DNA of 64,000 nucleotides, taken from positions 439,234-503,233 of the forward strand of contig NZ_KZ614146.1 of assembly GCF_002886185.1 (NCBI RefSeq), in the 5' to 3' direction. The position numbers were made by a program, and so were the translations under genes. The notes below the pieces were generated by a model. That model saw only the letters and a program-made list of their open reading frames with translations. It did not search any database and was not told where the DNA came from. The stretch is from Salipaludibacillus neizhouensis (GTDB taxonomy: Bacteria > Bacillota > Bacilli > Bacillales > Salisediminibacteriaceae). Below are positions 13,358 through 52,442 of this stretch, piece after piece (positions within the stretch are counted from its first letter, which is position 1; the number at the start of each line of letters is the position of its first letter).

Positions 13358-13515
13358 GATAAGAATTTATAAAATTGGCAGCTACCTTCACACCGCACGT
13401 ATCAAGGGAAACCCACATCCTTTCGAGTAGCACCTACACGCACTACATAGGTGCTACTCGGGTGGTGGAAGCTGACGCTGCATTTAATAAAAGACGGCTA
13501 TGCCGTTTTTCTTAT
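13358..13515 (+). repeat. 160-bp structured repeat, copy 1 (class B)
   Basis: Full copy bounded by GATAAGAA and TTCTTAT. Outer arm: CTTC-A-CACCGC pairs with GTGGTG-GAAG (one G-T pair). Central hairpin: CGAGTAGCACCTA / TAGGTGCTACTCG, 13 bp. Terminal hairpin: ACGGC-TAT-GCCGT followed by TTTTC. It lies between cvpA and polX. Confidence 0.85.
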
Positions 13516-13589
13516 TACTTGCGTCCTAGTAACTCGTTTGGATATGATGAAAGGTGATTAAAAGTTCTGGAATAATATGAGGTGACATT

Positions 13590-15314
13590 ATGACAATATT
13601 AAATAAAAAAGATGTAATTCAGGCTCTTGAACGTATAGCAGTGTATTTAGAAATCAAAGGAGAGAATCCTTTTAAAATCTCTGCTTATAGAAAGGCTGCG
13701 CAAGCATTAGAGCGAGATGAACGTACGATGGCGGAAATTGAGGATCCTTCGAAATTAACTGGGATTGGAAAAGGAACAGCCGGAGTTATTGAGGAATTTG
13801 TCACTCATGGCGAAACCTCACTCTTAACAGAACTAGCTGAAGAAATTCCTGATGGGTTATTACCATTACTTAAATTACCTGGTCTTGGTGGCAAAAAAAT
13901 TGGTAAACTTTATCAGGAACTGGATGTTGTAGATGTCCATTCTCTTCGAACAGTGTGTGAAGAAAACAAAGTCCGCGCACTGGCAGGGTTTGGGGCGAAG
14001 TCAGAAGAAAAGATTCTTGCTTCTATTGAAGAATTCGGAAAACGTCCAGAACGGTTATCAATTGCCCAAGTGCGTCCAGCAGCGGAGGATCTTATCGCAA
14101 GGTTGAATAATATAAACGAAATAGAACGATTTGAGTTAGCAGGAAGTTTTAGACGTGGTAGGGAGACAGTAAAGGACTTGGATATCATCCTATCAACAGA
14201 GGATCCCAAAACCGTAGGAGATATTCTTGTTTCTATGGAGCATATTTATGAGGTCGTCGGTCATGGTGAGACAAAGGTGAGTGTGGAACTTCAATATGAT
14301 GATCTAATTGTGCCCGTAGATTTCAGGATGGTTCGTGACGAATCGTTTGCAACCATTCTTCATCACTTCACTGGGTCTAAAGATCACAATGTACTTTTAC
14401 GTCAACGAGCGAAGGAACGTGGCGAAAAAATAAGTGAATATGGCGTTGAGAATGAAGAGACAGGGGAAGTTAGGCACTTTGAAACGGAAGAAGCTTTCTT
14501 TAACCACTTTGACCTCGCTTTTATACCACCGGAAGTAAGAGAAGGAATGGAAGAGCTGGAGGCCTTTGAGGGTGTACATTCCCTTGTCGAGCATTCTGAT
14601 ATAAAATCGGATCTTCATATGCATACTACATGGAGTGATGGGGCGCAATCGATTGAAGAAATGGTAAATGTGTGCAAGGAAAAAGGCTATACCCATATGG
14701 CCATAACTGATCATTCTAAATATTTAATGGTAGCAAATGGTTTATCTGTCGAGCGTCTTAAGCGCCAGCATGAAGAAGTGAAAAAGCTGAATGAAAAAGA
14801 AAAAGATATCACAATTTTTACTGGAATCGAAATGGACATATTACCAGACGGTAGTCTTGATTATACCGATGATGTCCTAAAAGAAGTCGATTTTGTTATT
14901 GCTTCTATTCACTCGTCCTTTCAACAGGATGAAGATACGATTATGAAACGGTTAGAAAACGCTTGTCGTAATCCACACGTAGCGATGATTGCTCACCCTA
15001 CAGGCAGGGTGATTGGAAAACGTGCTGGTTATCCTGTAAATATGGAAAAATTATTCGAATTAGCTGTGGAAACTGATACAATATTAGAATTGAATGCAAA
15101 TCCTAATCGACTGGATTTATCTTCGGAATGGGTGAAGAAAGCACAAGCAGCCGGTGTGAAAATTGCTGTGAATACAGATGCCCACCGTTTTGATATGCTT
15201 GACGATATGCCAATAGGTGTGAAAACAGCTAGAAGAGGCTGGTTAGCAAAAGATCATGTGGTGAACACGTGGTCAGCGGAAAAATTAAAGGAATTCATAG
15301 ATAAACATAGATAA
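13590..15314 (+). CDS. polX: DNA polymerase X family protein (PolX)
   Basis: A repair polymerase with 3'-5' exonuclease activity, 574 aa, the usual length. An N-terminal 8-kDa-like helix-hairpin-helix region is followed by the nucleotidyltransferase motif GSFRRGRETVKDLDI (about residues 183-197, with the paired catalytic acidic residues). The C-terminal PHP domain starts near residue 339 (SDLHMHTTWSDG) with the metal ligands ITDHS, IEMDILPDG, IAHPTG and NTDAHR. GAGGTGA lies upstream of the ATG. It is the yshC homologue, followed by mutS2 about 75 bases later as in B. subtilis. Confidence 0.94.
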   Translation: MTILNKKDVIQALERIAVYLEIKGENPFKISAYRKAAQALERDERTMAEIEDPSKLTGIGKGTAGVIEEFVTHGETSLLTELAEEIPDGLLPLLKLPGLGGKKIGKLYQELDVVDVHSLRTVCEENKVRALAGFGAKSEEKILASIEEFGKRPERLSIAQVRPAAEDLIARLNNINEIERFELAGSFRRGRETVKDLDIILSTEDPKTVGDILVSMEHIYEVVGHGETKVSVELQYDDLIVPVDFRMVRDESFATILHHFTGSKDHNVLLRQRAKERGEKISEYGVENEETGEVRHFETEEAFFNHFDLAFIPPEVREGMEELEAFEGVHSLVEHSDIKSDLHMHTTWSDGAQSIEEMVNVCKEKGYTHMAITDHSKYLMVANGLSVERLKRQHEEVKKLNEKEKDITIFTGIEMDILPDGSLDYTDDVLKEVDFVIASIHSSFQQDEDTIMKRLENACRNPHVAMIAHPTGRVIGKRAGYPVNMEKLFELAVETDTILELNANPNRLDLSSEWVKKAQAAGVKIAVNTDAHRFDMLDDMPIGVKTARRGWLAKDHVVNTWSAEKLKEFIDKHR

Positions 15315-15389
15315 GACCCCGTAAAAGAGAGGATACTGAGAACGTGATTAATCACTTTCAGTATTCTCAAAAATTTGGAGGTGACCCTT

Positions 15390-17753
15390 GTGATTGAAAG
15401 GGTATGTCGCATTTTAGAATACGATAAGATGAAAGAACAGTTAGTCCAACATGCCGGATCTTCTTTAGGAAAACAACGTGTCAGGGAGTTGATGCCTTCT
15501 TTTAGCTATGAAGACATTTCAGATGCCCAGGAGAGAACTTATGAAGGCGCAAAAGTTGTTAGATTAAGAGGACAAGCTCCATTAGGGGGACTTCGAGACA
15601 TTCGAGCTTCGATAAAGAGAGCAGAAATAGGCGGACTTTTAAATGAATCAGAGCTTTTAGATATTTCATCAACGATCTATGCCAGTCGCCGTTTCAAGCA
15701 ATTCGTTGAAGGGCTTATCGAGGATGAGTTAGAATTAACGATTCTCCCACAACTTGCCGATCAAATTGTCCCTCTTTCAGAACTCGAGCAGGAAATTAAT
15801 CATGCCATCGACGAAAATGGGGGAGTACTTGATTCTGCAAGTGTTGTACTTCGAGGGATTCGCCAACAAATTCGCTCACATGAATCGGGAATTCGCTCGA
15901 AATTGGAAAGTATTACGCGCTCTTCAAATGGAAGAAAAATGCTGTCAGATGCAATCATAACGATTCGGAATGATCGTTATGTTATCCCGGTTAAAGCAGA
16001 ACATAGAGGACATTTTGGTGGAATGGTGCATGACCAATCTGCATCCGGACAAACCTTGTTTATTGAACCTGAATCGGTTGTACTAATTAACAACCAACTC
16101 AGAGAGGCACGGATGAAGGAAAAACAGGAGATCCAACGCATTCTGCAGGTTCTTTCTGCCTTAGTAAGTGAGAATGTAGAAGAACTTGCTTTGATTGTTG
16201 AAGTAATGACGGAAGTGGATTTTATTTTTGCTAAAGCGCATTACAGTCAGACAATAAAAGGCTCTCAGCCTAAATTAAATGAAGATGGTTTTATTCATAT
16301 GAAGAAAGCCAGACATCCGTTGATTCCAACTGAGGAAATTGTTCCAATAGATGTTGAGCTTGGTGGTGATTTTTCTTCCTTAGTAATTACCGGTCCCAAT
16401 ACTGGGGGGAAAACAGTCACTTTAAAAACAGTTGGTTTACTAACACTCATGACACAATCGGGATTACAAATTCCTTGTGAGGAAGGATCTACTGCTGCAG
16501 TTTTCCAAAAAATCTTTGCTGATATTGGAGATGAGCAGTCGATAGAACAGAGTTTAAGTACTTTTTCTTCTCATATGACAAATATCGTTAATATTATGGA
16601 TAATGTAGATTTTCAATCTCTTGTGCTCTTTGATGAGCTTGGAGCTGGAACCGATCCTACAGAAGGGGCTGCTTTAGCAATAGCTATTCTGGATCATGTT
16701 TATAGTGTTGGAGCCAATGTCATAGCAACGACCCACTATAGTGAGTTAAAAGGATATGCATATGATCGGGAAGGTGTGATGAATGCCAGTGTGGAGTTCA
16801 ATGTCGAAACACTCAGACCGACCTATCGATTGTTAATTGGTGTGCCTGGGAGAAGTAATGCCTTTGCTATTAGTAATCGTCTAGGTCTTAGTGAACGAAT
16901 TATTGAAGATGCAAAAGGCCACATTACGGCAGATTCAAACAAGATGGAAAAAATGATTTCTTCTTTAGAAGACAGTCGTAAAAAAGCAGAGCAAGATATG
17001 GAAGAAGCGAATGACCTTCGCCAAGAAGCGGAGAAACTTCACCGAGAGCTTTCTGATGAGTTGGAGAAATTCTCAGAGGAGAAAGAAAAAGTTCTGCAGA
17101 GTGCGCAAGATAAAGCTGCTGAATCGGTAAAAAAAGCAAAAACTGAAGCAGAACAAATTATTGCTGAGCTTCGGGACATGCATAAAAATAATCCAGCTAT
17201 TAAAGATCACGAACTTATAGATGCTAAAAAACGATTGGAAAATGCAGAACCGCAGCTTGTTAAGAATGGTAAAAAGACCAAGCCGAAATTAGTAAAACCA
17301 AATGTGGATAAATTGATTCCAGGCGATGAAGTCAAAGTAGTCAGCTTTGATCAAAAAGGATATATTGTTGATAAAGTGAGTGAAAAGGAATACTATGTGC
17401 AACTTGGTATGATGAAAATGAAAGTCAAAAAAGATGACTTAATCTATATTAATCGTCCTAAAGCAGTAGAAACAAAACCGTTAACTACTTTAAGAGGAAG
17501 AGACGCTCATGTAAAAACAGAGTTGGATCTTCGCGGAGAAAGATATGAAAGTGCAATGATGGATGTTGAAAAGTATTTAGATGATGCTGTACTTGCCGGT
17601 TACCACCAAGTTTCTATTATCCATGGTAAAGGAACTGGAGCCCTTCGTAAGGGTGTCCAAGAGCTTTTAAGAAAGCATAGCAATGTACAAGAGACGAGAA
17701 TGGGAACGCAAGGAGAAGGCGGCTCAGGTGTAACCATCGTTTTGCTTAAATAA
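15390..17753 (+). CDS. mutS2: Endonuclease MutS2
   Basis: A MutS-like ATPase of 787 aa that in Bacillus rescues collided ribosomes and affects recombination. GTG at 15390 is preferred because GGAGGTG lies six bases upstream, and it gives the B. subtilis length. Visible are the clamp region, Walker A GPNTGGKT (about residue 334), Walker B and signature [22 protein letters not shown], a long charged coil (520-640) and the C-terminal Smr domain with ELDLRGERY and [13 protein letters not shown]. It sits between polX and yshE, with the next gene 15 bases after the stop. Confidence 0.95.
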
Positions 17754-17768
17754 GCCAGGAGGTGCAGC

Positions 17769-18176
17769 ATGGGGGATCTTTTCAATCATGACTATGTATA
17801 CACTACTGGTGTGTACAGTGTCGTAGTAATCGCAATTATTATAGCCTTGGCCGTTTTTGAATGGGTAACAAAATATAGTACTTGGGATGAAGTGAAAGAA
17901 GGAAATCTTGCAGTGGCTCTTGCTACAGGAGGGAAAGTGTTTGGTGTTGCCAACATTTTTCGCCATTCGATTATGGCAAACGATTCCGTTTTATCTATGA
18001 TGGGGTGGGGTGCCTTCGGATTTGCCCTTCTATTATTTGTTTATTTTATATTTGAATTTTTGACTCCGGGTTTTAAAGTGGACGAGGAATTAACGAACGA
18101 TAACCGTGCCGTAGGTTTACTATCATTTATTATATCCGTATCTTTATCCTTCGTCATTGGAGCAAGTATTCATTAA
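17769..18176 (+). CDS. yshE: DUF350 family membrane protein
   Basis: A 135-aa membrane protein with four predicted helices arranged as in the DUF350 family: a first helix ending ALAVFEWVTKY, then a pair of conserved segments (GNLAVALATGGKVFGVANIF and NDNRAVGLLSFIISVSLSF). It is the yshE homologue, directly after mutS2 with AGGAGGTG upstream of its ATG, and so is probably co-transcribed with mutS2. Function unknown. Confidence 0.88.
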   Translation: MGDLFNHDYVYTTGVYSVVVIAIIIALAVFEWVTKYSTWDEVKEGNLAVALATGGKVFGVANIFRHSIMANDSVLSMMGWGAFGFALLLFVYFIFEFLTPGFKVDEELTNDNRAVGLLSFIISVSLSFVIGASIH

Positions 18177-18190
18177 AAGTATTAGGGGAG

Positions 18191-18224
18191 GCTGTGTAAA
18201 TAATTGGTTTTTACACAGTCTTTA
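18191..18224 (+). terminator. Probable terminator after yshE
   Basis: GCTGTGTAAA pairs with TTTACACAGT around a short loop, followed by a modest T-rich run. Confidence 0.5.
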
Positions 18225-18246
18225 CAGATTAGAAAGGGGTAAATAA

Positions 18247-18327
18247 ATGGAAACATTGTGGAAGATATTAGTCATTCTCTGTGGCTTATTTATGGTAAGT
18301 GGTATCGTCTATATTCTTTTCTTTTAA
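18247..18327 (+). CDS. Small single-helix membrane protein
   Basis: A 26-aa frame, METLWKILVILCGLFMVSGI then VYILFF, with AAAGGGG about seven bases before its ATG. It is one hydrophobic helix with a charged N-terminus. Nothing in the sequence names a family. It lies after yshE and before the lcfA control region. Coding is supported by the ribosome binding site only. Confidence 0.45.
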   Translation: METLWKILVILCGLFMVSGIVYILFF

Positions 18328-18404
18328 GCGAAAACTAATTTTACATAGATATTACACCTATAAATCCGGTAACATTGAAAAATTTTGAATAAAAAGGTTC
18401 CTTT

Positions 18405-18420
18405 TTGTATACGTTTTCAT
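18405..18420 (-). promoter_or_regulatory. CcpA binding site (cre) upstream of lcfA
   Basis: The minus strand reads ATGAAAACGTATACAA, which fits every position of the consensus WTGNNARCGNWWWCAW. It lies about 140 bases before the first acyl-CoA ligase gene, consistent with known catabolite repression of fatty-acid degradation in Bacillus. Confidence 0.75.
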
Positions 18421-18561
18421 TTACAATGAAAGATAAGAGGGAGAATGCCTTTCAATGTTAAGAGATGTTAACTGAGCGTATGTTTAGCAAACGTTTCTGT
18501 CATCCTCTTTTCATTGATTATCATCTTTTAGAAGGAGGATAAGAAAAAGGGAGGTTTTACC

Positions 18562-20250
18562 ATGGATACAGTCATGAAAAAACCGTGGTTTGAACACTAT
18601 CCAGAGGAAATTCCTAAGACTATTGACTATGATGAGGATACGCTGCAAAGTTATCTGAAAAAAGCGGCAAAAAATTATCCGGATAAATCAGCTTTTCATT
18701 TCATGGGGAAAGAAATGAATTATAAAGAGGTTTATGAATCTGCACTAAAGTTGGCTAACCAGCTCCAGTTATTAGGAGTTACACAAGGCGATCGCGTAGC
18801 TATTATGCTTGCAAATACTCCGCAAGCTGTCATTTCTTATTATGGTGCTCTGTTTGCAGGTGGAATTGTCGTACAGACAAACCCACTGTATGTAGAGCGT
18901 GAAATTGAACATCAAATGAATGATGCTGGTGCTAAGGTTATGATTTGCCTGGATTTAGTTTATCCCCGTGTTGCTAATGTAAAAGAGAAAACAAAATTAG
19001 AACACATCATTGTTACAGGGATAAAGGATTACCTTCCTTTTCCGAAAAATTTGCTCTATCCTTTCATTCAAAAGAAGAATACAGGCATTAAAGTAGATTT
19101 AAAATATGGACCTCATTTGCATTCTTTCAGGGATGTCATTCAGAAAGGTGAAGCAAAAGAGATTCCACTTGATATTGATCCGAAAGTTGATCTTGCACTT
19201 CTTCAATACACCGGTGGAACAACGGGACCGGCAAAAGGTGTGATGCTGACTCATTACAATTTGGTTGTTAATACGCAACAATGTGAAAAGTGGATGCATA
19301 AAATGAAACCTGGGGAAGAGGTCATTATTGCAGCTTTACCATTTTTTCATGTATATGGAATGACAACTGTGATGAATTTAGCGATACGTTTAGGTTTTAA
19401 AATGATTATTATGCCGAAATTTGATCCGCAAGGGATTCTTAAAGCGATACAGAAGCATAAGGCAACATTGTATCCAGGAGCTCCAACGATGTATATTGGT
19501 TTATTGAACCACCCAGATATTAAAAAATACGATCTGTCGTCAATTAAAGCCTGCATCAGTGGCTCAGCAGCATTACCATTAGAAGTGCAGACTCAATTTG
19601 AACAGGCTACAAAAGGAAGATTAGTAGAAGGTTACGGACTAACGGAAACCTCGCCGGTTGCTGTAGCAAATCTTATATGGGGGGATCGCAAGCCGGGATC
19701 TGTAGGTTTACCTTGGCCTGATACAGAAGTAACTATTTTATCAGCAGAGACGGGAGAGCAAGCAAAGCCCAATGAAGTAGGAGAAATCATTATAAAAGGA
19801 CCGCAAGTAATGAAAGGCTACTGGAATCGTCCTGAGGATACACAAGCAAGTTTTCGAGATGATTGGTTTCTCTCAGGTGACATGGGTTATATGGATGAAG
19901 AAGGCTATTTTTACGTTGTCGATCGTAAAAAAGACATGATTATTGCAGGTGGATTTAATATATATCCGCGTGAAATTGAAGAAGTACTTTACGAGTATGA
20001 AGATGTGCAAGAGGTGTGCGTAATTGGAGTTCCAGATCCTTACCGTGGGGAGACGGTAAAAGCATTTATTGTGCCTAAGGAAGGAAAGACAATTTCAGAA
20101 GCGGATCTCGATGAGTATTCACGTAAACATTTAGCATCGTTTAAGGTACCTAAATTCTATGAGTTTAGAGAAGAGTTACCTAAAACAATGGTAGGTAAAA
20201 TTTTACGTCGAGTCCTTGTAGAACAAGAAAAAGAAAGAAATATAAAATAA
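18562..20250 (+). CDS. lcfA: Long-chain fatty acid-CoA ligase, first copy
   Basis: Activates long-chain fatty acids to acyl-CoA with ATP, the entry step to beta-oxidation. It is a 562-aa ANL-superfamily enzyme with the phosphate loop YTGGTTGPAKGVMLTH (about residue 215), YGLTETSP, SGDMGYMDEEGYFYVVDRKKDMI and the C-terminal lysine region PKTMVGKILRR. GGGAGG precedes the ATG. It is preceded by a full-consensus cre site, and no FadR operator was seen directly upstream. A paralogue follows 134 bases later, and the two share most of their length, so they arose by tandem duplication. Confidence 0.94.
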   Translation: MDTVMKKPWFEHYPEEIPKTIDYDEDTLQSYLKKAAKNYPDKSAFHFMGKEMNYKEVYESALKLANQLQLLGVTQGDRVAIMLANTPQAVISYYGALFAGGIVVQTNPLYVEREIEHQMNDAGAKVMICLDLVYPRVANVKEKTKLEHIIVTGIKDYLPFPKNLLYPFIQKKNTGIKVDLKYGPHLHSFRDVIQKGEAKEIPLDIDPKVDLALLQYTGGTTGPAKGVMLTHYNLVVNTQQCEKWMHKMKPGEEVIIAALPFFHVYGMTTVMNLAIRLGFKMIIMPKFDPQGILKAIQKHKATLYPGAPTMYIGLLNHPDIKKYDLSSIKACISGSAALPLEVQTQFEQATKGRLVEGYGLTETSPVAVANLIWGDRKPGSVGLPWPDTEVTILSAETGEQAKPNEVGEIIIKGPQVMKGYWNRPEDTQASFRDDWFLSGDMGYMDEEGYFYVVDRKKDMIIAGGFNIYPREIEEVLYEYEDVQEVCVIGVPDPYRGETVKAFIVPKEGKTISEADLDEYSRKHLASFKVPKFYEFREELPKTMVGKILRRVLVEQEKERNIK

Positions 20251-20273
20251 CTGTTATTTTGATTAGATTTAAT

Positions 20274-20316: not shown

Positions 20317-20384
20317 GTGTTTTAAAGTAATAGTTTAAGAGAGAGAATGTCTGAACTTAAAGGAGAATTGAAGGAGGACTATAC

Positions 20385-22140: not shown

Positions 22141-22235
22141 AATGAGCGAAGTCTCCGCAGTATACAAGCCTGTTAATAGCGTCTTTCTTTTAATAGGACC
22201 ACGGAAAGTGAGCGGTCATTCTTCTAAAGAACATT
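22141..22235. repeat. Dispersed Bacillaceae repeat, truncated copy
   Basis: The end CCACGGAAAGTGAGCGGTCATTCTTC matches, in pieces, the element at 62.8 kb. The rest is degenerate. The following bases to 22.53 kb (about 290) contain no recognisable gene and presumably the promoter of the next one. Confidence 0.55.
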
Positions 22236-24227: not shown

Positions 24228-24336
24228 CTTCATCAGCCTCCTTCCGATTAGCACCTACACAGACTACGTAGGTGCTAATCGGAGCGGTGGAAGCTGACGC
24301 TGTATTTAATAAAAGACGGCTATGCCGTTTTTCTTA
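24228..24336 (+). repeat. 160-bp structured repeat, copy 2 (class B, 5'-truncated)
   Basis: The 5' arm is missing. The central hairpin reads CGATTAGCACCTAC / GTAGGTGCTAATCG, where the G-C pair of other copies has become T-A on both sides (compensatory). The 3' arm (GCGGTGGAAGCTGACGCTG) and terminal hairpin ACGGC-TAT-GCCGT match class B. It lies between the unknown membrane protein and the ABC permease. Confidence 0.8.
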
Positions 24337-31078: not shown

Positions 31079-31166
31079 ATGCTTTCGAACAGAGCGGGAG
31101 CAATCCGCTCTCGGCAGTTGAAGCTCACGCTGTATTTTATAAAAAACGCTGTGCCGTTTTTCTTAT
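31079..31166 (+). repeat. Chimeric repeat: dispersed-repeat fragment plus 3' half of the 160-bp repeat (copy 3)
   Basis: The left part (GCTTTCGAACAGAGCGG) resembles the start of the Bacillaceae repeat at 62.5 kb. From about 31113 it becomes GTTGAAGCTCACGCTGTATTTTATAAAAAACG with GTGCCGTTTTTCTTAT, the 3' arm and terminal end of the 160-bp family. The central hairpin is missing. Confidence 0.6.
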
Positions 31167-33649: not shown

Positions 33650-33710
33650 AGCTAGATCCGTGTTGCTATGACTCGTTGCATTTGTTAACCTATTAAATGG
33701 GTTTGAAATA

Positions 33711-33990
33711 ACAGGTAGGGGTTGCGGTAACCATCAGTAAAACACTGCAAAACGGTGAGATTTCAGGATAGTGTTTGAAAGGGGAAGTCGCCGAAGAATA
33801 GGTCTTTCTCACAAAGTATTTTTTCGGAAAATGGTGCTTTAGAACAGAGAGGTTTTTGCTTTTACCAGCAACTAGTACTTTCAATATTTTAATACCGAAT
33901 TTTGAAATTTTACTCACAAGGTCAATTCTGGCTTTGCAGTGAATAATTGCAGAGTTGCCACATAGCTATGTATGTGGAGAACTATCTCAC
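33711..33990 (+). promoter_or_regulatory. Lysine riboswitch (L box) in the lysC leader
   Basis: The leader contains L-box core elements in order: GGTAGGGGTTGCGG (P1/P2 5' side), CATCAGTAA, a P3 hairpin (AACACT...AGTGTT), the hallmark GAAAGGGGAAGTCGCCGAAG (33776-33797), then TGCAGTGAATAATTGCA (P5-like, 33937-33953), GTTGCCA and the closing ACTATCTC (33981-33988), which can pair with GGTAG at the 5' end. About 125 bases separate the GCCGAAG core from CTGGC, much more than in B. subtilis lysC. No canonical terminator with a T run precedes lysC, so the expression platform is unclear; control may be translational. Confidence 0.75.
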
Positions 33991-34154
33991 GAAACGGCTT
34001 TTGCCAATAACTTAGAAGTCGTATTCGGCAAGGAGACAAGTCTCGTTGTCGAATTCTTTTATACGAGAGAATTCACTCGTGATCAGTGTGAAAAGATGAA
34101 ACGAATTTTTGAAGACAGAAATTTGTGTGAAAAAAAGTCGAGGAGGCGTTCATA

Positions 34155-35435: not shown

Positions 35436-35479
35436 AAAAGGAGTTTCCTGAATGTATCATCAGGAAACTCCTTTTTTTT
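35436..35479 (+). terminator. Terminator after lysC
   Basis: A stem of 14 bp or more (AAGGAGTTTCCTGA and complement) with an eight-base loop and eight T residues. Confidence 0.92.
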
Positions 35480-35483
35480 GACA

Positions 35484-35614
35484 GATAAGAAAGTTATAAA
35501 ATGACAGCTATCTTTACGCCACACGTATCAAGGGAAGTTCGCCCTTGATGCTTAAATGATGGTGGCTTTAAAGATCACGCTGTATTTAAGAAAACGGCTC
35601 TGCCGTTTTTCTTA
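35484..35614 (+). repeat. 160-bp structured repeat, copy 4 (class A, short form)
   Basis: Outer arm ATCTTTA-C-GCCAC pairs with GTGGC-TT-TAAAGAT. The usual central hairpin is replaced by ATCAAGGG-AAGTTCG-CCCTTGAT, an alternative 8-bp hairpin made from the left flank. Terminal hairpin ACGGC-TCT-GCCGT then TTTTTC. It lies between the convergent lysC and MMPL genes. Confidence 0.8.
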
Positions 35615-44884: not shown

Positions 44885-45340
44885 ATGAAACCTGATTACA
44901 TAAAGGACTTGGAGACTTGGAAAGATGAATTCCAACTTTTCTTTCCTGTATCTGTTCGATTTTCTGAAACAGATGCTTTTGGTCATTTAAATAATACGGT
45001 GTCTTTTGTTTATTTCGAAACAGCCAGAATTGAATTTTTTAAGGAAACAGGACTCATGCAACGTTGGATGTCCCGTACCGGAGAGAACATTCCTGTTACT
45101 GCTGATTTGCAATGTGATTACAGGAAGCAGATTTTTTTTGATGAGAAACTCAACATAGGGGTAAAAGTTGCCAAGGTTGGTTCTTCCTCTCTTGATTTAC
45201 ATTACGTAATTCTTAATGAGAACAAAGAAGTTTGTATGACTGGCAGAGGTAGTATCGTTCAAGTTTCAAAGAAAACAGGTAAATCTTCTGCATGGGAAAC
45301 AGATATTAAAAATATATTGGGAAATTTAGTTAATTTATGA
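44885..45340 (+). CDS. ysmA: Hotdog-fold acyl-CoA thioesterase YsmA
   Basis: A 151-aa protein of the 4HBT thioesterase superfamily. It contains VRFSETDAFGHLNNTVSFVYFETARIEFF, where the Asp of the D-x-x-GHLNN motif is the catalytic residue, then YRKQIFFDEKLNIGVKVAKVG. It should hydrolyse acyl-CoA. AGGGGGG lies four to five bases before the ATG at 44885; a longer frame from 44816 would read through the FadR operator and is rejected. It lies between sdhB and gerE as ysmA does in B. subtilis. The operator ties it to acyl-CoA metabolism. Confidence 0.87.
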   Translation: MKPDYIKDLETWKDEFQLFFPVSVRFSETDAFGHLNNTVSFVYFETARIEFFKETGLMQRWMSRTGENIPVTADLQCDYRKQIFFDEKLNIGVKVAKVGSSSLDLHYVILNENKEVCMTGRGSIVQVSKKTGKSSAWETDIKNILGNLVNL

Positions 45341-45400
45341 TGCTACTCGGGTCGTAAAAAACTGATGCGGTTTAACAAAATACGCTCTGCATTTTCTTGT
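45339..45400 (+). repeat. 160-bp structured repeat, copy 5 (degenerate 3' fragment)
   Basis: TGCTACTCGGG, GATGCGGTTTAACAAAATACG and TGCATTTTCTT keep the order of the right arm of the central hairpin, the 3' arm and the terminal hairpin, but with many changes. It starts at the ysmA stop codon. Confidence 0.5.
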
Positions 45401-45533
45401 CACTTTTAGCTTCTTTGAAACGGGTGGGTCTTTATTACAGTCACATATGAAATATGTTTTACATAAGCTATTGATGACTAAATCTTCGCTTAAATCATGG
45501 TTTAAACAGCCCGTGCAAGAAAGGGTGAAACTA

Positions 45534-45758: not shown

Positions 45759-45760
45759 TG

Positions 45761-45793
45761 AAAACCGGCTTCTTGAAGAGGGGCCGGTTTTCT
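45761..45793 (+). terminator. Terminator after gerE
   Basis: AAAACCGGC / GCCGGTTTT stem with a 13-base loop and a T-rich tail. Confidence 0.8.
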
Positions 45794-45891
45794 GTTTTCA
45801 TAAATATTTGGCAATTATTCTTCATTGACGAAACGTTTAGATATTCTATATGATGAAAATAGAAAATATTTAAAGTGGGTGTCCGGCTGTT

Positions 45892-46743
45892 ATGAAAGGA
45901 CCATTTAACGTTCAAAAAATATTAAATAATAATGTTGTTATTGCAGAATCTTCTAGCCATGAAGAAGTGATTTTTATTGGCAAAGGAATAGGATTCGGGA
46001 AAAAATTCGGAGACACATTCGAGGCGACGTATTATGAAAAAATATATTCCCTTGTGGATGAAAGAGAAAAGGAAAAGTATATTCATCTAGTCACTAAGGA
46101 AACGGAAGAAACGTTACTTATCATTCATGAAGCAATTGAAAAAATTCATGATTCTATTGGTTTCCAGATTGAAGATACTATTCACTTTGCGATCACTCAA
46201 CACTTAGCTTTAGCTCTGCAAAGAACAAGAGATGGCACAGATATTCAAAATCCATTTTTGACCGAAACAAAATGGCTTTATTATGATACCTATAAAATCG
46301 CTGAGGATATTGTTGCATTTCTTTTCCAAGCGACGGAACTTAAATTGCCGGATGCTGAGATAGGCTTCATTACGCTACATATTCAAAGTGCCATTCGTCA
46401 TACTGACACCATGATCTCTCCAACCTCGGACCTTTTTACAAGGTGTGTGAAATATGTAGAGGAAAAAATGGTTGAACCTAATAAAAAGGATACTCGTTCG
46501 TTTCGCAGGTTTACAGGACAATTAAAAAATATGATTCAGGACCCTTTGGATGACGTTGCTTCTAAAGTGGACAAAGAAATCATTTTATCCTTGAAGAAAA
46601 ATAATCCATTGTGCTATAATATATCTCGAAACGTCATTCGGATGATTGAGAAATCTGCCGACCTTAAAATAAGTGATGCAGAAGTTATCCAATTAATGAT
46701 TTCACTTAGATCCTTAATTGCAGAACAACATAATAAAGCATAA
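45892..46743 (+). CDS. glcT: BglG-type antiterminator, GlcT-like, with degenerate PRD2
   Basis: An RNA-binding antiterminator of PTS genes, 283 aa. The CAT domain (residues 1-57) reads FNVQKILNNNVVIAESSSHE and IFIGKGIGFGKKFGD. PRD1 keeps both regulatory histidines (DTIHFAITQHLALAL and GFITLHIQSAI). PRD2 aligns with GlcT by CYNISRNVIRMIEK, but the two phosphorylation histidines appear lost: the expected RHIRF position reads GQLKN and the expected YLTLHLYRL reads QLMISLRSL. It precedes ptsHI with no ptsG between. GlcT is the best family match, but regulation by HPr through PRD2 is unlikely. Confidence 0.8.
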   Translation: MKGPFNVQKILNNNVVIAESSSHEEVIFIGKGIGFGKKFGDTFEATYYEKIYSLVDEREKEKYIHLVTKETEETLLIIHEAIEKIHDSIGFQIEDTIHFAITQHLALALQRTRDGTDIQNPFLTETKWLYYDTYKIAEDIVAFLFQATELKLPDAEIGFITLHIQSAIRHTDTMISPTSDLFTRCVKYVEEKMVEPNKKDTRSFRRFTGQLKNMIQDPLDDVASKVDKEIILSLKKNNPLCYNISRNVIRMIEKSADLKISDAEVIQLMISLRSLIAEQHNKA

Positions 46744-46767
46744 CTCGTTTACGTGTTACTGAATTTC

Positions 46768-46870
46768 AGGCATGAGTGAAGAGGTGTGTATGAAAAGGAA
46801 AAAAGCTAGTGTGTTTTTCTTTATTGAAGTTTATTCTTCACTTTTCATAGACAGCCATTACTCATGTCTT
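46768..46870 (+). terminator. Long terminator / possible antiterminator hairpin after glcT
   Basis: AGGCATGAGTGA (46768-46779) pairs with TTACTCATGTCT (46858-46869) and a T run follows. Inside, GTGAAG and TGAAAAG can pair with CTTCAC and CTTTTCA, giving overlapping alternative stems. Such alternatives are what PTS antiterminators act on, but no RAT consensus was confirmed. Confidence 0.5.
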
Positions 46871-46981
46871 TTTATATGCTGTTTTAATGAAATCTTCTGT
46901 GTTTAAGAGGAAATGTAGCGTAGAAGATCGAAATAAGGGTATAAATAGTAAGAGGAGTTTATGTTTTATAATTGGAAGTAT

Positions 46982-47010
46982 TTGAATTATCCGAAGGGTA
47001 CTATTATAAT
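46982..47010 (+). promoter_or_regulatory. SigmaA promoter of ptsHI
   Basis: TTGAAT (46982-46987) and TATAAT (47005-47010) are separated by 17 bp. Transcription would begin near 47017, leaving a leader of about 24 bases with no room for an antiterminator hairpin. Confidence 0.75.
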
Positions 47011-47040
47011 TAACTCATTATGGAGAAGGAGTGTTTAAAC

Positions 47041-47304
47041 ATGGCAGAACAAACGTTTAAAATTACAGCAGAAACAGGAATTCACGCTCGTCCAGCAACT
47101 CAATTGGTGAACAAAGCAGGTCAATACGAGTCAGAAGTTACATTGGCTTATAACGGTAAATCTGTTAACTTGAAATCAATCATGGGCGTAATGTCTTTAG
47201 GTGTTGGACAAGGTTCTGAAGTAACTATTAAAGCTGAAGGTCCAGATGCTGATCAAGCTATTAAAGGACTTGAAGAAGTTATGAAGCAAGGACTCTCTGA
47301 TTAA
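47041..47304 (+). CDS. ptsH: Phosphocarrier protein HPr
   Basis: General PTS phosphocarrier, 87 aa. His15 in [12 protein letters not shown] accepts phosphate from enzyme I, and Ser46 in [13 protein letters not shown] is the HPr-kinase site, so P-Ser-HPr can serve CcpA-mediated repression (cre sites are present in this window). GAAGGAG precedes the ATG at 47041. The stop codon overlaps the ptsI start by one base (TAATG). Confidence 0.97.
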
Positions 47305-49019
47305 TGGCTAAAAAGCTTTCCGGCATTGCAGCATCTGCTGGGATCGCCATAGCAAAAGCTTTTCGTCTTGAAACACCTGATTTAACTGTTGAAAAGCAGA
47401 CTGTGGATAACCCAGATGAAGAAATACAGAAGTTTGATGCATCCCTTGAAAAATCAAAGGCTGAACTAGAAGTGATTAAACAAAAAATGTTAGAAGATTT
47501 AGGCGAAGAACATGCAGAAATTTTTTCTGCTCACCTTCTCGTCTTGAGTGATCCTGAACTCGTTGATCCGATTAAACAAAAAATCAATAATGATAAGGTA
47601 AATGCATCTTTTGCTTTAAAAGAAGTTGCTGATCAATTTATTAGCATGTTTGAAGCGATGGATAATGAATATATGAGAGAGCGTGCTGCAGACATTCGTG
47701 ATGTTTCGACGCGGGTTTTAGCACACGTTCTTGGTAGTCCGATTGTCTCTCTTGCGGAGATACATGAAGAAGTCATTCTCATCGCGGAAGATTTAACACC
47801 GTCAGATACAGCGCAACTTAACAAAAAGTTTGTCAAAGGATTCGTGACAGATATTGGTGGTAGAACCTCTCACTCGGCTATTATGGCGAGATCGATGGAA
47901 ATTCCGGCGGTAGTTGGATCGAAGACCGTGACAAAAGACTCTGAGCAAGGTGTGACCGTTATTGTGGATGGTTTAGAAGGGAACGTTATTATTGATCCTT
48001 CTGAAGCAGAATTAGCCGAGTATCGTCAAAAATTGGCGGATCATGAAGAGCAAAAGAAAGAATGGGCGAAGCTCGTGAATGAACCTTCTGTATCTAAAGA
48101 TGGTCATCACGTAGAGTTGGCTGCTAATATTGGCACACCAAAAGATGTCGAAGGTGTGTTGAACAACGGTGCAGAAGGAGTCGGTTTATACCGTACAGAA
48201 TTCTTGTACATGGGAAGAGATGAACTGCCAAACGAGGATGAGCAATTTGAATCTTACAAAAAGGTTGTAGAAAACCTTGATGGAAAACCTGTTGTAATTC
48301 GGACTTTAGACGTAGGTGGCGATAAGGAACTTCCTTATTTAGATCTTCCGAAAGAGATGAATCCATTCTTAGGTTTCCGTGCTATTCGTCTTTGTTTAGA
48401 ACAAGATGACATGTTTCGAGTGCAGCTTCGTGCTTTATTAAGAGCGAGTGCATTTGGTAACTTGAAAATCATGTTCCCGATGATTGCAACACTTGATGAA
48501 TTCAGACAAGCGAAAGCGATGCTTGAAGAAGAAAAACAAAAACTCATCGATAAAAATGTTGAGGTAAGTGAAAAGATTGAAGTGGGAATTATGGTCGAGA
48601 TTCCATCTACTGCTGTAATGGCGCCTCAATTTGCTAAGGAAGTTGATTTCTTCAGTATTGGTACAAATGATTTAATTCAGTATACGATGGCTGCTGATCG
48701 GATGAATGAACAAGTATCTTACTTGTATCAGCCTTATAACCCAGCAATCCTTCGTTTAGTGAAGATGGTCATAGATGCCTCTCACGCGGAAGGCAAATGG
48801 ACAGGCATGTGTGGAGAGATGGCAGGCGATGAAGTTGCTATCCCATTACTTCTAGGCTTAGGACTGGATGAATTCAGTATGAGTGCCACATCCGTTTTAC
48901 CCGCAAGGAGTCAATTACGTAAAATATCAAAAGAAGAAGCAGAATCGGTTGCAACGAAAGCTTTAGAACTTAATACTTCTGAAGAAGTGAAGCAACTGGT
49001 TGAAAAAACGTTTCTTTAA
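47304..49019 (+). CDS. ptsI: Phosphoenolpyruvate-protein phosphotransferase (enzyme I)
   Basis: Transfers phosphate from PEP to HPr, 571 aa. It has the phosphohistidine motif [21 protein letters not shown] (His about 189), the TIM-barrel PEP site with [29 protein letters not shown] and [17 protein letters not shown], and the catalytic Cys in GMCGEMAGD. Translationally coupled to ptsH. A strong terminator follows. Confidence 0.97.
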
Positions 49020-49080
49020 TACGATATTACTATTTGAACATGCTCTTTATTAAGTGTTTAGAATAGAATAAAGTAGAAAC

Positions 49081-49110
49081 AAACGCTGGTTTTTAACCAG
49101 CGTTTTGTTT
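49081..49110 (+). terminator. Terminator after ptsI
   Basis: AAACGCTGGT / ACCAGCGTTT stem with a short T/A loop and a following T-rich run. Confidence 0.88.
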
Positions 49111-49115
49111 TGTAA

Positions 49116-49274
49116 GATAAGAATTTATAAGTTGACAGCTATCTTTACGCCACACGCATCAAGGGAAGTTCGCTTCCTTTCGAGTAGCACCTACACGCAC
49201 TAAATAGGTGCTACTCGGGGGTGGCTTTAAAGATCACGCTGTATTTAATAAAAGACGCTTTGCGTTTTTCTTAT
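49116..49274 (+). repeat. 160-bp structured repeat, copy 6 (class A)
   Basis: Full copy. Outer ends GATAAGAA / TTCTTAT; outer arm ATCTTTA-C-GCCAC with GTGGC-TT-TAAAGAT; central hairpin CGAGTAGCACCTA / TAGGTGCTACTCG; terminal hairpin ACGC-TTT-GCGT then TTTTC. It lies between ptsI and ysmB. Confidence 0.87.
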
Positions 49275-49392
49275 AGAGACAAGTTCGCAGGTAATGCAAG
49301 TCTTGTCCTGAGGAATTCTGAGGAATCACTTGAAATATAGCCGAAAAAGAAGGAAAATAGAACTATTCATAGGAATCGAAAGGAGGAAGGCA

Positions 49393-49872
49393 ATGCCTGA
49401 ACAAAAGCATGTAGAAAAAATCGATGAGGTACAAGTAGAACATATTGAAAAATCACTGCGAATGATTGCAGACATTGTCAAACAAAAAGGACGAGAGATT
49501 CTTAATGAATTTCCTATTACACCTCCTCAATTTATCGCTTTACAATGGTTGCATGAATTTGGCGATATGACGATTGGCGAATTGTCATCAAAAATGTATT
49601 TAGCCTGCAGTACGACGACTGATTTAGTGGATAGAATGGAAAAAAATGAATTAGTTGAACGTGTCAAGGATTCCAAAGATCGACGTGTCGTTAGAATTCA
49701 TTTACTTGATAAAGGTACAACAATAATACGCGAAGTGATTAACCAAAGGCAAGGATATTTACAAGGTGTTTTAGAAGACTTCTCGAGAGAAGACGTTGAT
49801 ATTTTAGAAAAAAACTTACGTTATCTTTACGATGAAATGAAACGTGATGCAAAAAGCTGGAAATCATTTTAA
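49393..49872 (+). CDS. ysmB: MarR-family transcriptional regulator YsmB
   Basis: A winged-helix regulator of 159 aa. It has the MarR recognition region FGDMTIGELSSKMYLACSTTTDLVDRMEKNELVERVKDSKDRRVVRIHL followed by the C-terminal dimer helices. GGAGG precedes the ATG at 49393. It sits immediately upstream of murI, with about 20 bases between them, the position of ysmB in B. subtilis. Targets and ligand unknown. Confidence 0.88.
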   Translation: MPEQKHVEKIDEVQVEHIEKSLRMIADIVKQKGREILNEFPITPPQFIALQWLHEFGDMTIGELSSKMYLACSTTTDLVDRMEKNELVERVKDSKDRRVVRIHLLDKGTTIIREVINQRQGYLQGVLEDFSREDVDILEKNLRYLYDEMKRDAKSWKSF

Positions 49873-49894
49873 TTAAGGAAGAGGACGTTTACCA

Positions 49895-50716
49895 TTGAAT
49901 AAACCTATAGGAGTTATTGACTCAGGAGTTGGCGGGCTGACGGTCGCATCTGAACTGATTCGGCAATTACCCAAAGAAGAAATTATTTATATTGGAGATA
50001 CATCCCGATGCCCGTATGGTCCAAGACATGAAGAAGAAGTACGGAAATATACATGGGAAATGATTGACTATCTCTTGCTTCATGAAATTAAACTATTAGT
50101 AATTGCTTGCAATACAGCTACAGCCGTTGTATTAGAGGAAGCGAAGGAGAAGCTATCCATACCCGTGATTGGAGTAATTCATCCCGGGGCGATTGCCGCG
50201 TTAAAGAGCACACGAAAAAATCATATTGGCGTTATTGGTACTGAAGGTACGATCTCCAGCGGGGCTTATTACCAAGAATTAACGTCTATTAATAATGATG
50301 TGAAAGTAGTAAGTGTAGCTTGTCCTACGCTTGTGCCCCTCGTGGAAAGTGGAGGTTTCACAGGAAATCACGCAACTGAGATTATTGAGCATGCCTTAAA
50401 GCCTATTTTAGAATATGATATTGATAGTTTAATTCTGGGCTGCACGCACTATCCTTTGATTTTAGCTAAAATTCAGGAGATAGCCGGTCCCGATATTAAT
50501 ATCATTTGCTCCGGTGACGAAACAGCTAGGGAAGTTAGTGCACTTCTTTATCATAATAAATTGCTTTATTTTGGTACAAGAATTCCGATTCATCTTTTCT
50601 ATACGACTGGGTTTCCGGAAACATTTGAAAAGGTTGCCTCCGACTGGCTTGACCGTGATGATTTGATTGTGAAAGTAACTGATTTGAATAAACTAGAAGT
50701 AAGTGAATGGTATTAG
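49895..50716 (+). CDS. murI: Glutamate racemase
   Basis: Makes D-glutamate for peptidoglycan (racE of B. subtilis). The 273-aa enzyme has GVIDSGVGGLTVASEL, GDTSRCPYGPR, the first catalytic Cys in VIACNTATAVVLE and the second in LILGCTHYPLI. The start is TTG at 49895 with GAGGACG upstream; no ATG is available nearby. Probably co-transcribed with ysmB. Confidence 0.95.
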   Translation: MNKPIGVIDSGVGGLTVASELIRQLPKEEIIYIGDTSRCPYGPRHEEEVRKYTWEMIDYLLLHEIKLLVIACNTATAVVLEEAKEKLSIPVIGVIHPGAIAALKSTRKNHIGVIGTEGTISSGAYYQELTSINNDVKVVSVACPTLVPLVESGGFTGNHATEIIEHALKPILEYDIDSLILGCTHYPLILAKIQEIAGPDINIICSGDETAREVSALLYHNKLLYFGTRIPIHLFYTTGFPETFEKVASDWLDRDDLIVKVTDLNKLEVSEWY

Positions 50717-50729
50717 TTATCATTTTATC

Positions 50730-50769
50730 AGCCTATCCTTTATTTATTCCTTTATGGATGGGCTTTTTT
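50730..50769 (+). terminator. Terminator after murI
   Basis: AGCCTATCC pairs with GGATGGGCT (one G-T pair) across a 17-base loop, then six T residues. Confidence 0.75.
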
Positions 50770-50770
50770 G

Positions 50771-50928
50771 GATAGAAAGTATAAGTTGACAGCTATCTTT
50801 ACGCCACACGCATCAAGGGAAGTTCGCCCTCCTTTCGAGTAGCACCTACACGCATTACGTAGGTGCTACTCGGGGTGGCTTTAAAGATCACGCTGTATTT
50901 AATAAAAAACGCTTTGTGTTTTTCTTAT
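50771..50928 (+). repeat. 160-bp structured repeat, copy 7 (class A)
   Basis: Outer arm as in copy 6. Central hairpin CGAGTAGCACCTAC / GTAGGTGCTACTCG (14 bp). Terminal hairpin ACGC-TTT-GTGT keeps pairing through a G-T pair. The 5' end is GATAGAAA instead of GATAAGAA. It lies between murI and gerM. Confidence 0.87.
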
Positions 50929-51046
50929 CGATATCCCAGTTACTCATTCTTTTTTCGCATTTTTCTCCGCGAACTTTTTTCTTTTGGTCTAAAAAGAAAG
51001 ATAGCTCGTATATATCTGTAGTACAAACAGTCAAGGAGGGAATGCA

Positions 51047-52225
51047 ATGCATCGCAAATGGAAACAAAGAGGTACTACGATGTTAATCATTGGAGCAACG
51101 GTAATGCTCATTACTGCTTGTGGGTCTGAGGAAACAAATGATGTGCTTGAAGAGATTGACCCGCCGCAAATTGATTATATTGAGGATGAAGAAGAGCTAG
51201 ATTTAGAAGTATTTGAAGCAGAAAGTAATAGTGAGGGTGATCAGCTTAGTTCGATCACGCAAGAAGAAGTAGACGAAGGTGATAATACAGCGGAAGAAAA
51301 AGGTGGTTCCGAAGAGAATGGAGATGCCAAAGAAAAGGGTGGCGCTTTAGAAACAGGGGACGTTCAAGAATTATATCTTCTTGATAAAAACGGGATGGTC
51401 GCTCCCCAATCGATTTCTATCGAGTTAGGGGAAGACGAAGTAAAGACTCTCGTTGATCATCTTGTGCAAGAAGGACCAATCACGGAACAGTTGCCTAATG
51501 GTTTTCAGGCGGTGCTTCCGGCTGGAACAGAGGTTGTGGAATCAGCGGTAGACAAACAAGGTGTTGCCACAGTTGATTTTAATACGGTATTCAATGATTA
51601 TCATCCGTCTCAGGAACTGCAAATTCTTCAATCATTAACCTGGACTCTTACACAATTGGATGATGTAGACAGAGTGAAGTTGAAAATGAATGGAGAAGAA
51701 CTAACGGCAATGCCGCAAAATGATACGCCAATTGGGGAAGGTTATACACGAGATCATGGTATTAACTTAGAAATGAACGATCAAGCAGATCTTGTAGCTA
51801 CAACTCCAGTAGTTGTCTACTTTCTTGCCCAAAATAACGAAGAAACCTATTATGTCCCTGTAACAAGAAGGGTTAATGAAACCGAAAATAAATATGAAGC
51901 GGTAATAAATGAATTACTGGAGGGACCATCCTATACCTCTCAATTACTCACGGATTTTCGTGAAGAGGTAGCCTTAATGGAGGAACCTACGTTTAAAGAC
52001 GGTACGTTGCACCTTGACTTCAACGAAGGATTGTTAAGTCAGATAAATGGTACAGCGATGTCTGAAGAAGCGTTAAATATGCTCGTACTTTCTTTGACGG
52101 AGCAAGAAGAAGTGGAAGATGTTTCTCTTTCTATAAATTCTGATCCATCTGTAATGGTAAGTAATGGACAGGAAGTATCAGCACCTGTCGCTCGACCAAC
52201 GCATGTGAACTCAGGAAGATTTTAA
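51047..52225 (+). CDS. gerM: Spore germination lipoprotein GerM
   Basis: A 392-aa lipoprotein needed for spore cortex and germination in B. subtilis. The N-terminal signal (LIIGATVMLITACG) ends in a lipobox with the acylated Cys at about residue 26. A low-complexity Glu/Asp/Gly-rich linker (about 30-105) follows, then two GerMN domains: residues about 107-245 with LYLLDKNGMVAPQSISIE, and about 250-380 with VVYFLAQNNEETYYVPVTRRV. GGAGGGAAT lies before the ATG. The acidic linker is longer than expected. Confidence 0.92.
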   Translation: MHRKWKQRGTTMLIIGATVMLITACGSEETNDVLEEIDPPQIDYIEDEEELDLEVFEAESNSEGDQLSSITQEEVDEGDNTAEEKGGSEENGDAKEKGGALETGDVQELYLLDKNGMVAPQSISIELGEDEVKTLVDHLVQEGPITEQLPNGFQAVLPAGTEVVESAVDKQGVATVDFNTVFNDYHPSQELQILQSLTWTLTQLDDVDRVKLKMNGEELTAMPQNDTPIGEGYTRDHGINLEMNDQADLVATTPVVVYFLAQNNEETYYVPVTRRVNETENKYEAVINELLEGPSYTSQLLTDFREEVALMEEPTFKDGTLHLDFNEGLLSQINGTAMSEEALNMLVLSLTEQEEVEDVSLSINSDPSVMVSNGQEVSAPVARPTHVNSGRF

Positions 52226-52251
52226 TAATTATACGAAACAACAAAATAGAT

Positions 52252-52442
52252 AGAAAAGATTCTACGCGTTTTTCTTACAAGATAAGAATTTATAAAATTG
52301 GCAGCTACCTTCACACCGCGCGTATCAAGGGAAGTCCACCTCCTTTCGAGTAGCTCCTACACGAATTACGTAGGTGCTACTCGGGGCGGTGGAAGCTGAC
52401 GCTGTATTTAATAATAAAAGACGGCTATGCCGTTTTTCTTAT
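52252..52442 (+). repeat. 160-bp structured repeat, copy 8 (class B) with a leading fragment
   Basis: A short fragment of another copy's end (CTACGCGTTTTTCTTA, to 52277) precedes a full copy at 52281-52442. Outer arm CTTC-A-CACCGC pairs perfectly with GCGGTG-GAAG. Central hairpin GAGTAGCTCCTAC / GTAGGTGCTACTC has one mismatch. Terminal hairpin ACGGC-TAT-GCCGT. The juxtaposed fragment suggests tandem or nested copying. It lies between gerM and rph. Confidence 0.85.

Follow-up and report, generated by a model that had tools for sequence, protein, structure and literature searches.

The window analysed here, a stretch of 64,000 nucleotides from Salipaludibacillus neizhouensis (assembly GCF_002886185.1, contig NZ_KZ614146.1, positions 439,234 to 503,233), contains in the gaps between its genes several copies and fragments of a structured repeat, which are listed in Table 1 with the hairpins preceding them. 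The gene names used for the neighbours (ptsI, ysmB, racE, gerM, rph and cvpA) are labels that we presume to be correct; the GerM protein of the window is 60% identical to those of Salipaludibacillus aurantiacus and S. sp. CUR1. All six copies named in the initial annotation were found at the positions it gave, and they were also picked up as repeats without any model. Among its three fragments, the one at 31112–31166 was recovered with a profile of the six copies, whereas those at 45339–45400 and 52252–52277 were not recovered at E 1e-3 and were recognized by eye only. The profile matches the copy at 24228 with its positions 55–160, at 24233–24336. The hairpin at 50731–50769 is not flagged by the terminator scanner, its loop being longer than the scanner allows.

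Table 1. Repeat copies in the 64-kb window and the hairpins found directly upstream of them
Feature	Position	Strand	Description and neighbours	Evidence
Target hairpin	13326..13357	+	Hairpin CTTCTCGTCATAGACGAGAAG and T tract preceding the 13358 copy; the gene upstream has a Colicin_V domain (cvpA-like)	Flank reading, domain match
Full copy	13358..13515	+	Long, class B; immediately follows a terminator-like hairpin	Sequence reading, profile search
Copy without its 5' part	24228..24336	+	Long, class B; central hairpin with a compensated pair (G-C to T-A)	Sequence reading, profile search
3' fragment	31112..31166	+	Immediately preceded by a hairpin (GAGCGG...CCGCTC) that has no T tract	Profile (E 1.9e-10), flank reading
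Target hairpin	35439..35483	+	Hairpin AGGAGTTTCCTG...CAGGAAACTCCT and T tract; the gene upstream is aspartokinase-like	Flank reading, domain match
Full copy	35484..35614	+	Short, class A; no central palindrome	Profile, alignment of short copies
Decayed 3' relic (weak)	45339..45400	+		By eye
Target hairpin	49081..49105	+	Terminator-like hairpin AAACGCTGGTTTTTAACCAGCGTTT preceding the 49116 copy; in congeners this gap has a terminator but lacks the element	Gap comparison, terminator scanner
Full copy	49116..49274	+	Long, class A; between PEP-utiliser (ptsI-like) and MarR-like genes	Profile, domains, gap comparison
Target hairpin	50731..50769	+	Hairpin GCCTATCC...GGATGGGC and T tract preceding the 50771 copy	By eye
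Full copy	50771..50928	+	Long, class A; between racemase (racE-like) and Germane-domain (gerM-like) genes	Profile, domains, gap comparison
3' relic of an older copy	52252..52277	+	Terminal hairpin only; 3 nt before the next copy	By eye
Full copy	52281..52442	+	Long, class B; between gerM-like and RNase PH genes	Profile, domains, gap comparison

Copy number, size classes and anatomy of the repeat

The host genome is 5.51 Mb in size (11 contigs), and 2.464 Mb of it were scanned with profiles of long and short copies. The scan returned 166 matches, 129 of which exceed 95 bp, at a mean density of one copy per 19 kb; the repeat is thus a genome-wide family and not a matter of the few copies first noticed. 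At this density, the absence from the accessory island mentioned in the initial annotation would carry little weight. The number of copies in the whole genome is probably nearly 300. A blastn search of the genome with one copy gave at least 45 matches, 40 of them at E 1.5e-40 or better (40 of the 298 first-look candidates were scored). Only 7 of the 129 copies overlap a called open reading frame (ORF) by more than 30 nt. For 95 of the 99 full copies, the identity to the nearest other copy reaches at most 97.8%, with a median of 92.6%.

The family falls into two size classes, of ~128 and ~158 bp, the long one having an additional central palindrome; the best-fitting model was the long one for 79 of the 129 copies and the short one for 50. 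In the first 1.664 Mb the left and right end modules pair in 97 cases, and the spacing between them forms clusters at 25–42 and 51–63 nt, plus two outliers. The left end reads GATAAGAA(T/A)(T/G)TATAA, its outermost bases being variable, and the stem is built in two steps, ACAGC/GCTGT followed by an arm of class A or B. The interior of the short class consists of the hairpin GTATCAAGGG/CCCTTGATAC and then TTAAATGAT, in the place of the central palindrome; that of the long class contains a palindrome, CGAGTAGCACCTAC/GTAGGTGCTACTCG, which resembles a repetitive extragenic palindrome (REP). The spacer TATTTAATAAAA precedes the right end, a terminator-like hairpin followed by TTTTTCTTA, which is nearly invariant among the 99 full copies. 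As read from the flanks, the ends hold the short inverted repeats ATAAGAA/TTCTTAT.

The long form retains the 5' arm of the short-form hairpin that it has lost, which suggests that it arose from the short form. Its palindrome contains GTAG and has the core GTAGCACCTAC or GTAGGTGCTAC; the GTAGGTGCTAC palindrome is absent from the short class. Outside the repeats this core occurs 27 times in the 1.664 Mb, 26 times on contig C2 and mostly in arrays. The long class looks like a short element that gained a palindrome of the kind seen in tandem beside a RAYT-like gene. One such array, at positions 606–1140 of locus L031 (G000:C2), is made of 91-bp units with the GTAGGTGCTAC palindrome; it adjoins a RAYT-like gene (an open Y1_Tnp frame of 204 codons), and as judged by eye from translations it lies between atpC-like and nuoA-like genes.

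Two further features of the window were noticed. A lysine riboswitch (33708–33992) lies upstream of the aspartokinase-like gene, and a second repeat family with CCACGGAAAGNGAGCGGTCATTCTTCC and GCTCGAATCCGCTCTAGGCGGACGCTTTC blocks is present at 22202, at 62545 and 62850 on the + strand, and at 54954 on the − strand. The cores of this second family have 17 and 18 exact matches in the 2.46 Mb, and a few of its copies run into a AAAAGACGC..GCGTTTTTCTTA tail, the same as that of the main family.

Covariation of the paired arms

Near-complete copies were taken from the 136 matches in the first 1.664 Mb and aligned: 44 of the 45 long copies (one left out by hand) and 24 of the 25 short ones (one left out for length). 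The short copies were aligned with MAFFT, structure being ignored. According to the initial annotation the two arms covary, and both classes bear this out by an excess of double changes over shuffled alignments. Together with the genome-wide spread, the covariation withstands the refutation set out in that annotation. The short copies have a covariation score of 0.158, compared to 0.103 (sd 0.006) in 500 shuffles, and 29 double-change cells compared to 9.6, while slid controls score at most 0.069. For the long copies, the double-change cells number 24 versus 7.7, the double-change pairs 7 versus 2.2, and the score is 0.072 versus 0.052. The covariation should not be taken as uniformly strong: in the short copies the double-change pairs number 7 versus 5.0, a value reached by 45 of the 500 shuffles, and there is no excess of further pair types (18 versus 17.9).

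The two arm classes described at the outset are real. Among the 24 short copies, pair 33/93 is U-A in 14 and C-G in 7, pair 39/86 is A-U in 15 and G-C in 7, and pair 36/89 is G-C in 19 and A-U in 3. Pairing is not kept at all positions that differ between the classes: at one position of the outer arm (columns 29/97 in the short and 29/135 in the long alignment) the two bases do not pair in 9 of the 24 short copies and in 22 of 43 long copies, this being the class B form. In the central hairpin, the change from G-C to T-A first seen in the window copy at 24228 is shared by 2 of the 44 long copies, and the alignments of both classes confirm that the terminal hairpin switches between forms.

In a cross-genus alignment of 39 matches (37 distinct), 26 of the 32 pairs have double changes and the score is 0.436 versus 0.175, in an alignment that was fitted to the model and is biased toward it. 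Three pairs of the host structure (columns 32/108, 47/85 and 48/84) do not form in it, or form in a minority of the matches only. In genome G010 the stem GCAGTGGAATTT/AAATTCCACTGC differs in sequence from that of the host and, by eye, pairs completely. What the covariation demonstrates is a single strand that folds, and such a strand need not be a functional RNA. The same pattern can result from template-switch repair of quasi-palindromes, and covariation alone is therefore no proof of selection for the fold; of the initial proposal that it implies selection for, or mobilization through, a folded nucleic acid, the folding single strand stands and the selection does not follow.

Orientation relative to replication

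By local GC skew, 113 of the 129 copies in the 2.464 Mb lie on the G-rich strand (116 of 133 matches in the first 1.664 Mb). The genes of the host are mostly co-directional with replication, hence gene direction and replication direction were separated for the 127 copies that have a neighbour on either side. Of the 72 copies flanked by two leading-strand genes, 69 follow the leading strand. The leading-strand orientation is also taken by 23 of 30 copies in convergent and 8 of 11 in divergent gaps, and pooling these gene-neutral gaps gives 31 of 41 (p 0.0015). Between two lagging-strand genes it is found in 11 of 14 copies (p 0.06, not significant alone). The orientation thus tracks the leading strand more than the genes.

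The same is seen in G045, a genome of another genus, in which the orientation changes at two points of the chromosome: the best split with two breakpoints, whose inner arc covers 2.13 of 4.46 Mb, accommodates 47 of the 49 listed copies (out of 85 matches). The GC skew pooled over 24 loci is +0.095 and −0.063, with the expected signs. It follows from the orientation in both genomes that replication exposes, as lagging-strand template, the strand which carries the hairpin and T tract.

Landing behind terminator-like hairpins

The upstream junctions of the 99 full copies were examined by a simple rule, the presence of a hairpin followed by a T tract; 85 of these copies do not lie behind another copy. 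Among these un-nested copies 34 are behind a hairpin and T tract, 22 of them a strong one. The same rule is satisfied by 7.1% (strong 1.9%) of 3000 random intergenic points and by 14.2% (strong 7.9%) of 535 points behind genes, and the excess over the gene-end control is significant (binomial p 5e-9 for all, 5e-7 for strong cases). The distance from the hairpin foot to the element is 4–18 nt in the 22 strong cases, and 7–11 nt in 16 of them. The un-nested copies that point against replication are also found behind such hairpins (7 of 12), and 9 of the 14 nested copies are preceded by a terminator-like hairpin, which is the end of the older copy.

In G045, 13 of 24 fetched copies lie behind a hairpin and T tract (10 strong), compared to 43 of 566 points drawn at random from these loci, coding sequence included (2 strong). 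Copies behind a hairpin and T tract were also recognized by eye at L119 in G008, L131 in G010, and L125 and L130 in G017, although this does not hold for all other printed copies.

Two gaps of the window were compared with those of seven congeners, the lengths being approximate as they were measured between the ends of protein alignments. The racE–gerM gap is 153–169 nt in the congeners and 334 nt in the window, an excess of about the size of one element, and the ptsI–ysmB gap is 167–230 nt versus 314 nt. By eye, both gaps contain a terminator and no element in the congeners.

Distribution of the family among genomes

With a covariance model of the short copies (E 0.01), element matches were obtained in 6 of 35 genomes of the host's family, the host included: at least 99 in the host, 85 (of 99 scored) in G045, 24 in G017, 4 in G010, 2 in G008 and 1 in G050. 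The seven other genomes of the host genus gave no match at this threshold; a 33-bp blastn match in one of them (G007) corresponds to the palindrome alone. At the level of the order, a multi-genus model matched 11 of 397 genomes, of which four belong to the host's family and the other seven to families f3, f6 and f42; G008, G045 and G050 are not among these 11 and may not have been drawn in the sample. The covariance-model search proposed initially thus reveals diverged relatives in both samples. Among 18 outer loci, L189, L198 and L199 (family f6) enclose a very different body between a GATAAGAA-like left end and a AAAAGACGCT..GCGTTTTTCTTA right end; the tails of several others differ, and their kinship is less sure. 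In G045, 5 of 24 copies examined (L146, L147, L148, L153 and L156) share nearly the same small internal deletion of the stem (CATGCGAGCTGACGCTG or a near variant), suggesting the multiplication of a shortened form there.

In a class sample of 398 genomes, a search at E 1e-5 with strict filters gave the host as the single match. Rfam 15 has no family that matches the repeats at gathering scores; at E 1 it gave only low-scoring matches to L131, far below those scores. Plasmid records gave no match to the repeats, and no description of them was found among the literature matches listed (titles and abstract openings). As far as these searches show, the family is undescribed, patchily spread, and unusual in its landing rule.

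Candidate enzymes

The host has seven Y1_Tnp matches, none above 55 bits, two of which lie in uninterrupted open frames, of 267 and 204 codons. All six element-bearing genomes of the family have a Y1_Tnp match, and in five we judge the match to be RAYT-like (low-scoring, in a longer frame); the host and G010 have matches of this kind only.

The host also has nine RVT_1 matches, and its reverse transcriptase (RT) loci contain RF02001 and other intron matches, indicating group II introns, which we take to be of class IIC. Introns with RF02001 lie directly behind terminator hairpins at L108 (G000:C2:533548-537165), L110 (G000:C1:436130-439747) and L115 (G000:C1:3170856-3174266), the one in L110 being situated ~0.5 kb before the window. 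L109 and L115 (G000:C1:3169746-3174266) form a near-identical partial intron duplication with a short unreadable stretch, which is probably an assembly artefact. Proteins resembling the RT of one host intron are present in 20 of the 35 genomes, including five of the six with the element, and G045 has none; the three best matches outside the host are in the element-bearing G010, G008 and G017. Neither the Y1 transposases nor the group II RTs could be singled out as the mobilizer, as neither distribution over the 35 genomes picks it out.

Proposed mode of movement

The balance of evidence tips slightly toward non-autonomous mobile elements of ~128 or ~158 bp that move as a single strand by an HUH (Y1) enzyme, in a manner like that of REPINs or of the insertion sequence (IS) family IS200/IS605. 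The landing behind hairpins, the leading-strand orientation and the lack of a general target duplication together argue for mobility as a single strand. We infer the mobility itself, the single-stranded DNA (ssDNA) intermediate and the HUH (Y1) enzyme, perhaps one of the RAYT-like transposases of the host, from these features of the copies, and an HUH (Y1) transposase is the mover that we favour. The lagging-strand template, single-stranded at the replication fork, would allow the element to fold; a cut would then be made at its right end, just behind its hairpin and T tract, and it would be joined behind a second hairpin and T tract of this strand, in many cases a host gene's terminator or the end of an earlier copy. 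Such a course would place the element in non-coding DNA, in leading-strand orientation and with no target duplication. The initial suggestion of an IS200/IS605-type or REP-like element moved as ssDNA fits landing, orientation and absence of duplication best, but no transposase could be tied to the element.

Several observations weigh against this reading. By the rule used, 51 of the 85 un-nested copies have no terminator at the junction. The gerM–rph gap compares less well than the other two (191 nt in S. aurantiacus and S. sp. CUR1 versus 338 nt in the window), and in the window its element lies upstream of the shared hairpin; a search in two congeners for the empty site of one G045 copy returned a single 31-bp match only. 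Y1_Tnp matches also occur in 20 of the 29 element-free genomes of the family, and no Y1 type is common to all six element-bearing ones, the single match of G017 belonging to the IS200 kind, which is short and high-scoring. The 5' end has no sharp boundary and is uncertain by a few nt; in the 78 of 99 copies that could be anchored, the left flank shows a T tract and then variable bases, with no fixed target of 4–5 nt. Two of the 30 clear-ended copies (of the 99) share a flank word of 6–7 nt, where ~0.6 would be expected; a general target-site duplication was rejected on these numbers. No copy in the 2.46 Mb carries a gene, and six loose pairings of left and right ends enclose only ordinary-looking ORFs; C1:2727343-2730169, considered as an element with a 2.8-kb insert, was discarded because its genes look ordinary. 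Likewise, no autonomous copy or IS with the same ends was seen in the 2.46 Mb scanned. Finally, the terminator scanner flags the right end of none of the three copies between 49 and 53 kb on the + strand, and of one on the − strand, which we ascribe to A-T pairs that extend the stem into the T tract.

It is unlikely that the copies were made from RNA in the manner of short interspersed elements (SINEs), a transcript ending at the terminal hairpin being copied from its 3' end by an RT, for instance that of the host group II introns, which primes on lagging-strand DNA stalled at a terminator hairpin. The introns at L108, L110 and L115 share the landing place of the repeat, as would be expected if the family borrows, or once borrowed, the intron machinery, and the best three RT matches outside the host fall in element-bearing genomes. 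The right end is sharp and the left is not, although right ends may also be kept by selection. Isolated end modules in the 1.664 Mb are more often right ones (52 3'-only versus 13 5'-only fragments), and a hairpin of any kind, with or without T tract, precedes 13 of the 52 3'-only fragments compared to 15 of 104 shifted points. However, a hairpin with T tract precedes only 2 of the 52, compared to 3 of 104 shifted points. The 3'-only fragments therefore look more like decay, the reading of 5'-truncated copies as a sign of copying from RNA was dropped, and ssDNA with an HUH enzyme is preferred over an RT. In addition, G045 has its 85 scored element matches and no match to the intron RT, in a search limited to this RT. 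It is very unlikely that the family is the SINE equivalent of bacteria, with a small structured RNA being reverse-transcribed into lagging strands stalled on terminator hairpins.

We consider it quite unlikely that the copies are a functional RNA or terminator cassette, old and no longer mobile, that selection keeps as 3' ends or backup terminators. Most full copies do end in a hairpin with T tract and may act as terminators, nested copies often stand behind the terminator-like end of an older one, and the folds covary. On the other hand, the spread is patchy, with well over a hundred copies in the host and no match in seven congeners, and many copies stand behind terminators that already existed, the congeners being without the element at the compared sites. 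The orientation tracks replication where the genes point otherwise, and no Rfam family matches. The terminating RNA that the initial annotation listed as an alternative may hold in part, given the hairpin and T tract at the ends of the copies, but on the strand of the element these ends are not flagged by the simple scanner.

A classical miniature inverted-repeat transposable element (MITE) moved by a DDE transposase through the short terminal inverted repeats would account for the many non-coding, intergenic copies, but is highly improbable given the absence of a general target duplication and the replication-strand bias and landing behind hairpins seen here, which are not usual DDE traits.

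Comparison with known systems and significance

Under the favoured movement as ssDNA by an HUH enzyme, the family is REPIN- or IS200/IS605-like in its working, yet it is a member of neither by the features tested. Like REPs and REPINs with their RAYT (TnpAREP) enzymes, it is small, intergenic, non-autonomous and present in many copies with long hairpins and compensatory changes; its long class has the GTAG-containing palindrome, and a RAYT-like gene stands beside an array of that palindrome. REPINs are defined by two inverted REPs as conserved ends (PMC3116915), whereas the element is no such doublet: its ends, GATAAGAA... and hairpin-TTTTTCTTA, are asymmetric, it lands behind terminators, its short class has no REP, and no RAYT-like match was seen in the element-bearing G017.

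Non-autonomous, MITE-like elements derived from IS200/IS605, such as PATEs, are also known. The family resembles them in its subterminal hairpins, in that no general target duplication was found in the copies tested and in an orientation as for insertion in the lagging-strand template. It differs in having no fixed target tetranucleotide, the target seeming to be a hairpin and T tract, and in that no IS with its ends was seen in the 2.46 Mb; the Y1_Tnp matches of the host are low-scoring.

For group IIC introns, a structure with a DNA stem-loop as target and the use of lagging strands by the intron proteins are described (PMC10190682), and the host group II introns likewise stand behind terminator hairpins. 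The element, of ~128–158 nt, has no intron domains (no Rfam match), and it is plentiful in G045, where the intron RT has no match. The bcr1–bcr18 repeats of the Bacillus cereus group are intergenic as well; bcr1, of 147 or 167 bp (PMC2267715), is of similar length, structured and MITE-like, and about half of the bcr1–18 copies are transcribed in B. cereus (PMC3446304). Their hosts belong to another family, and bcr1 was compared with the element by its description; the class sample matched only the host, and a B. cereus-group genome may not have been drawn in it.

If mobile, an element that targets the stop signal of genes by its shape could reach hundreds of copies without breaking genes, remodelling their 3' ends. 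The folds kept across genera despite sequence change would form a natural series on what a single-strand transposase reads, and the family offers a clean test case for replication direction governing insertion. It also bears on the question whether enzymes of the RAYT type, regarded as domesticated, mobilize anything besides REPs.

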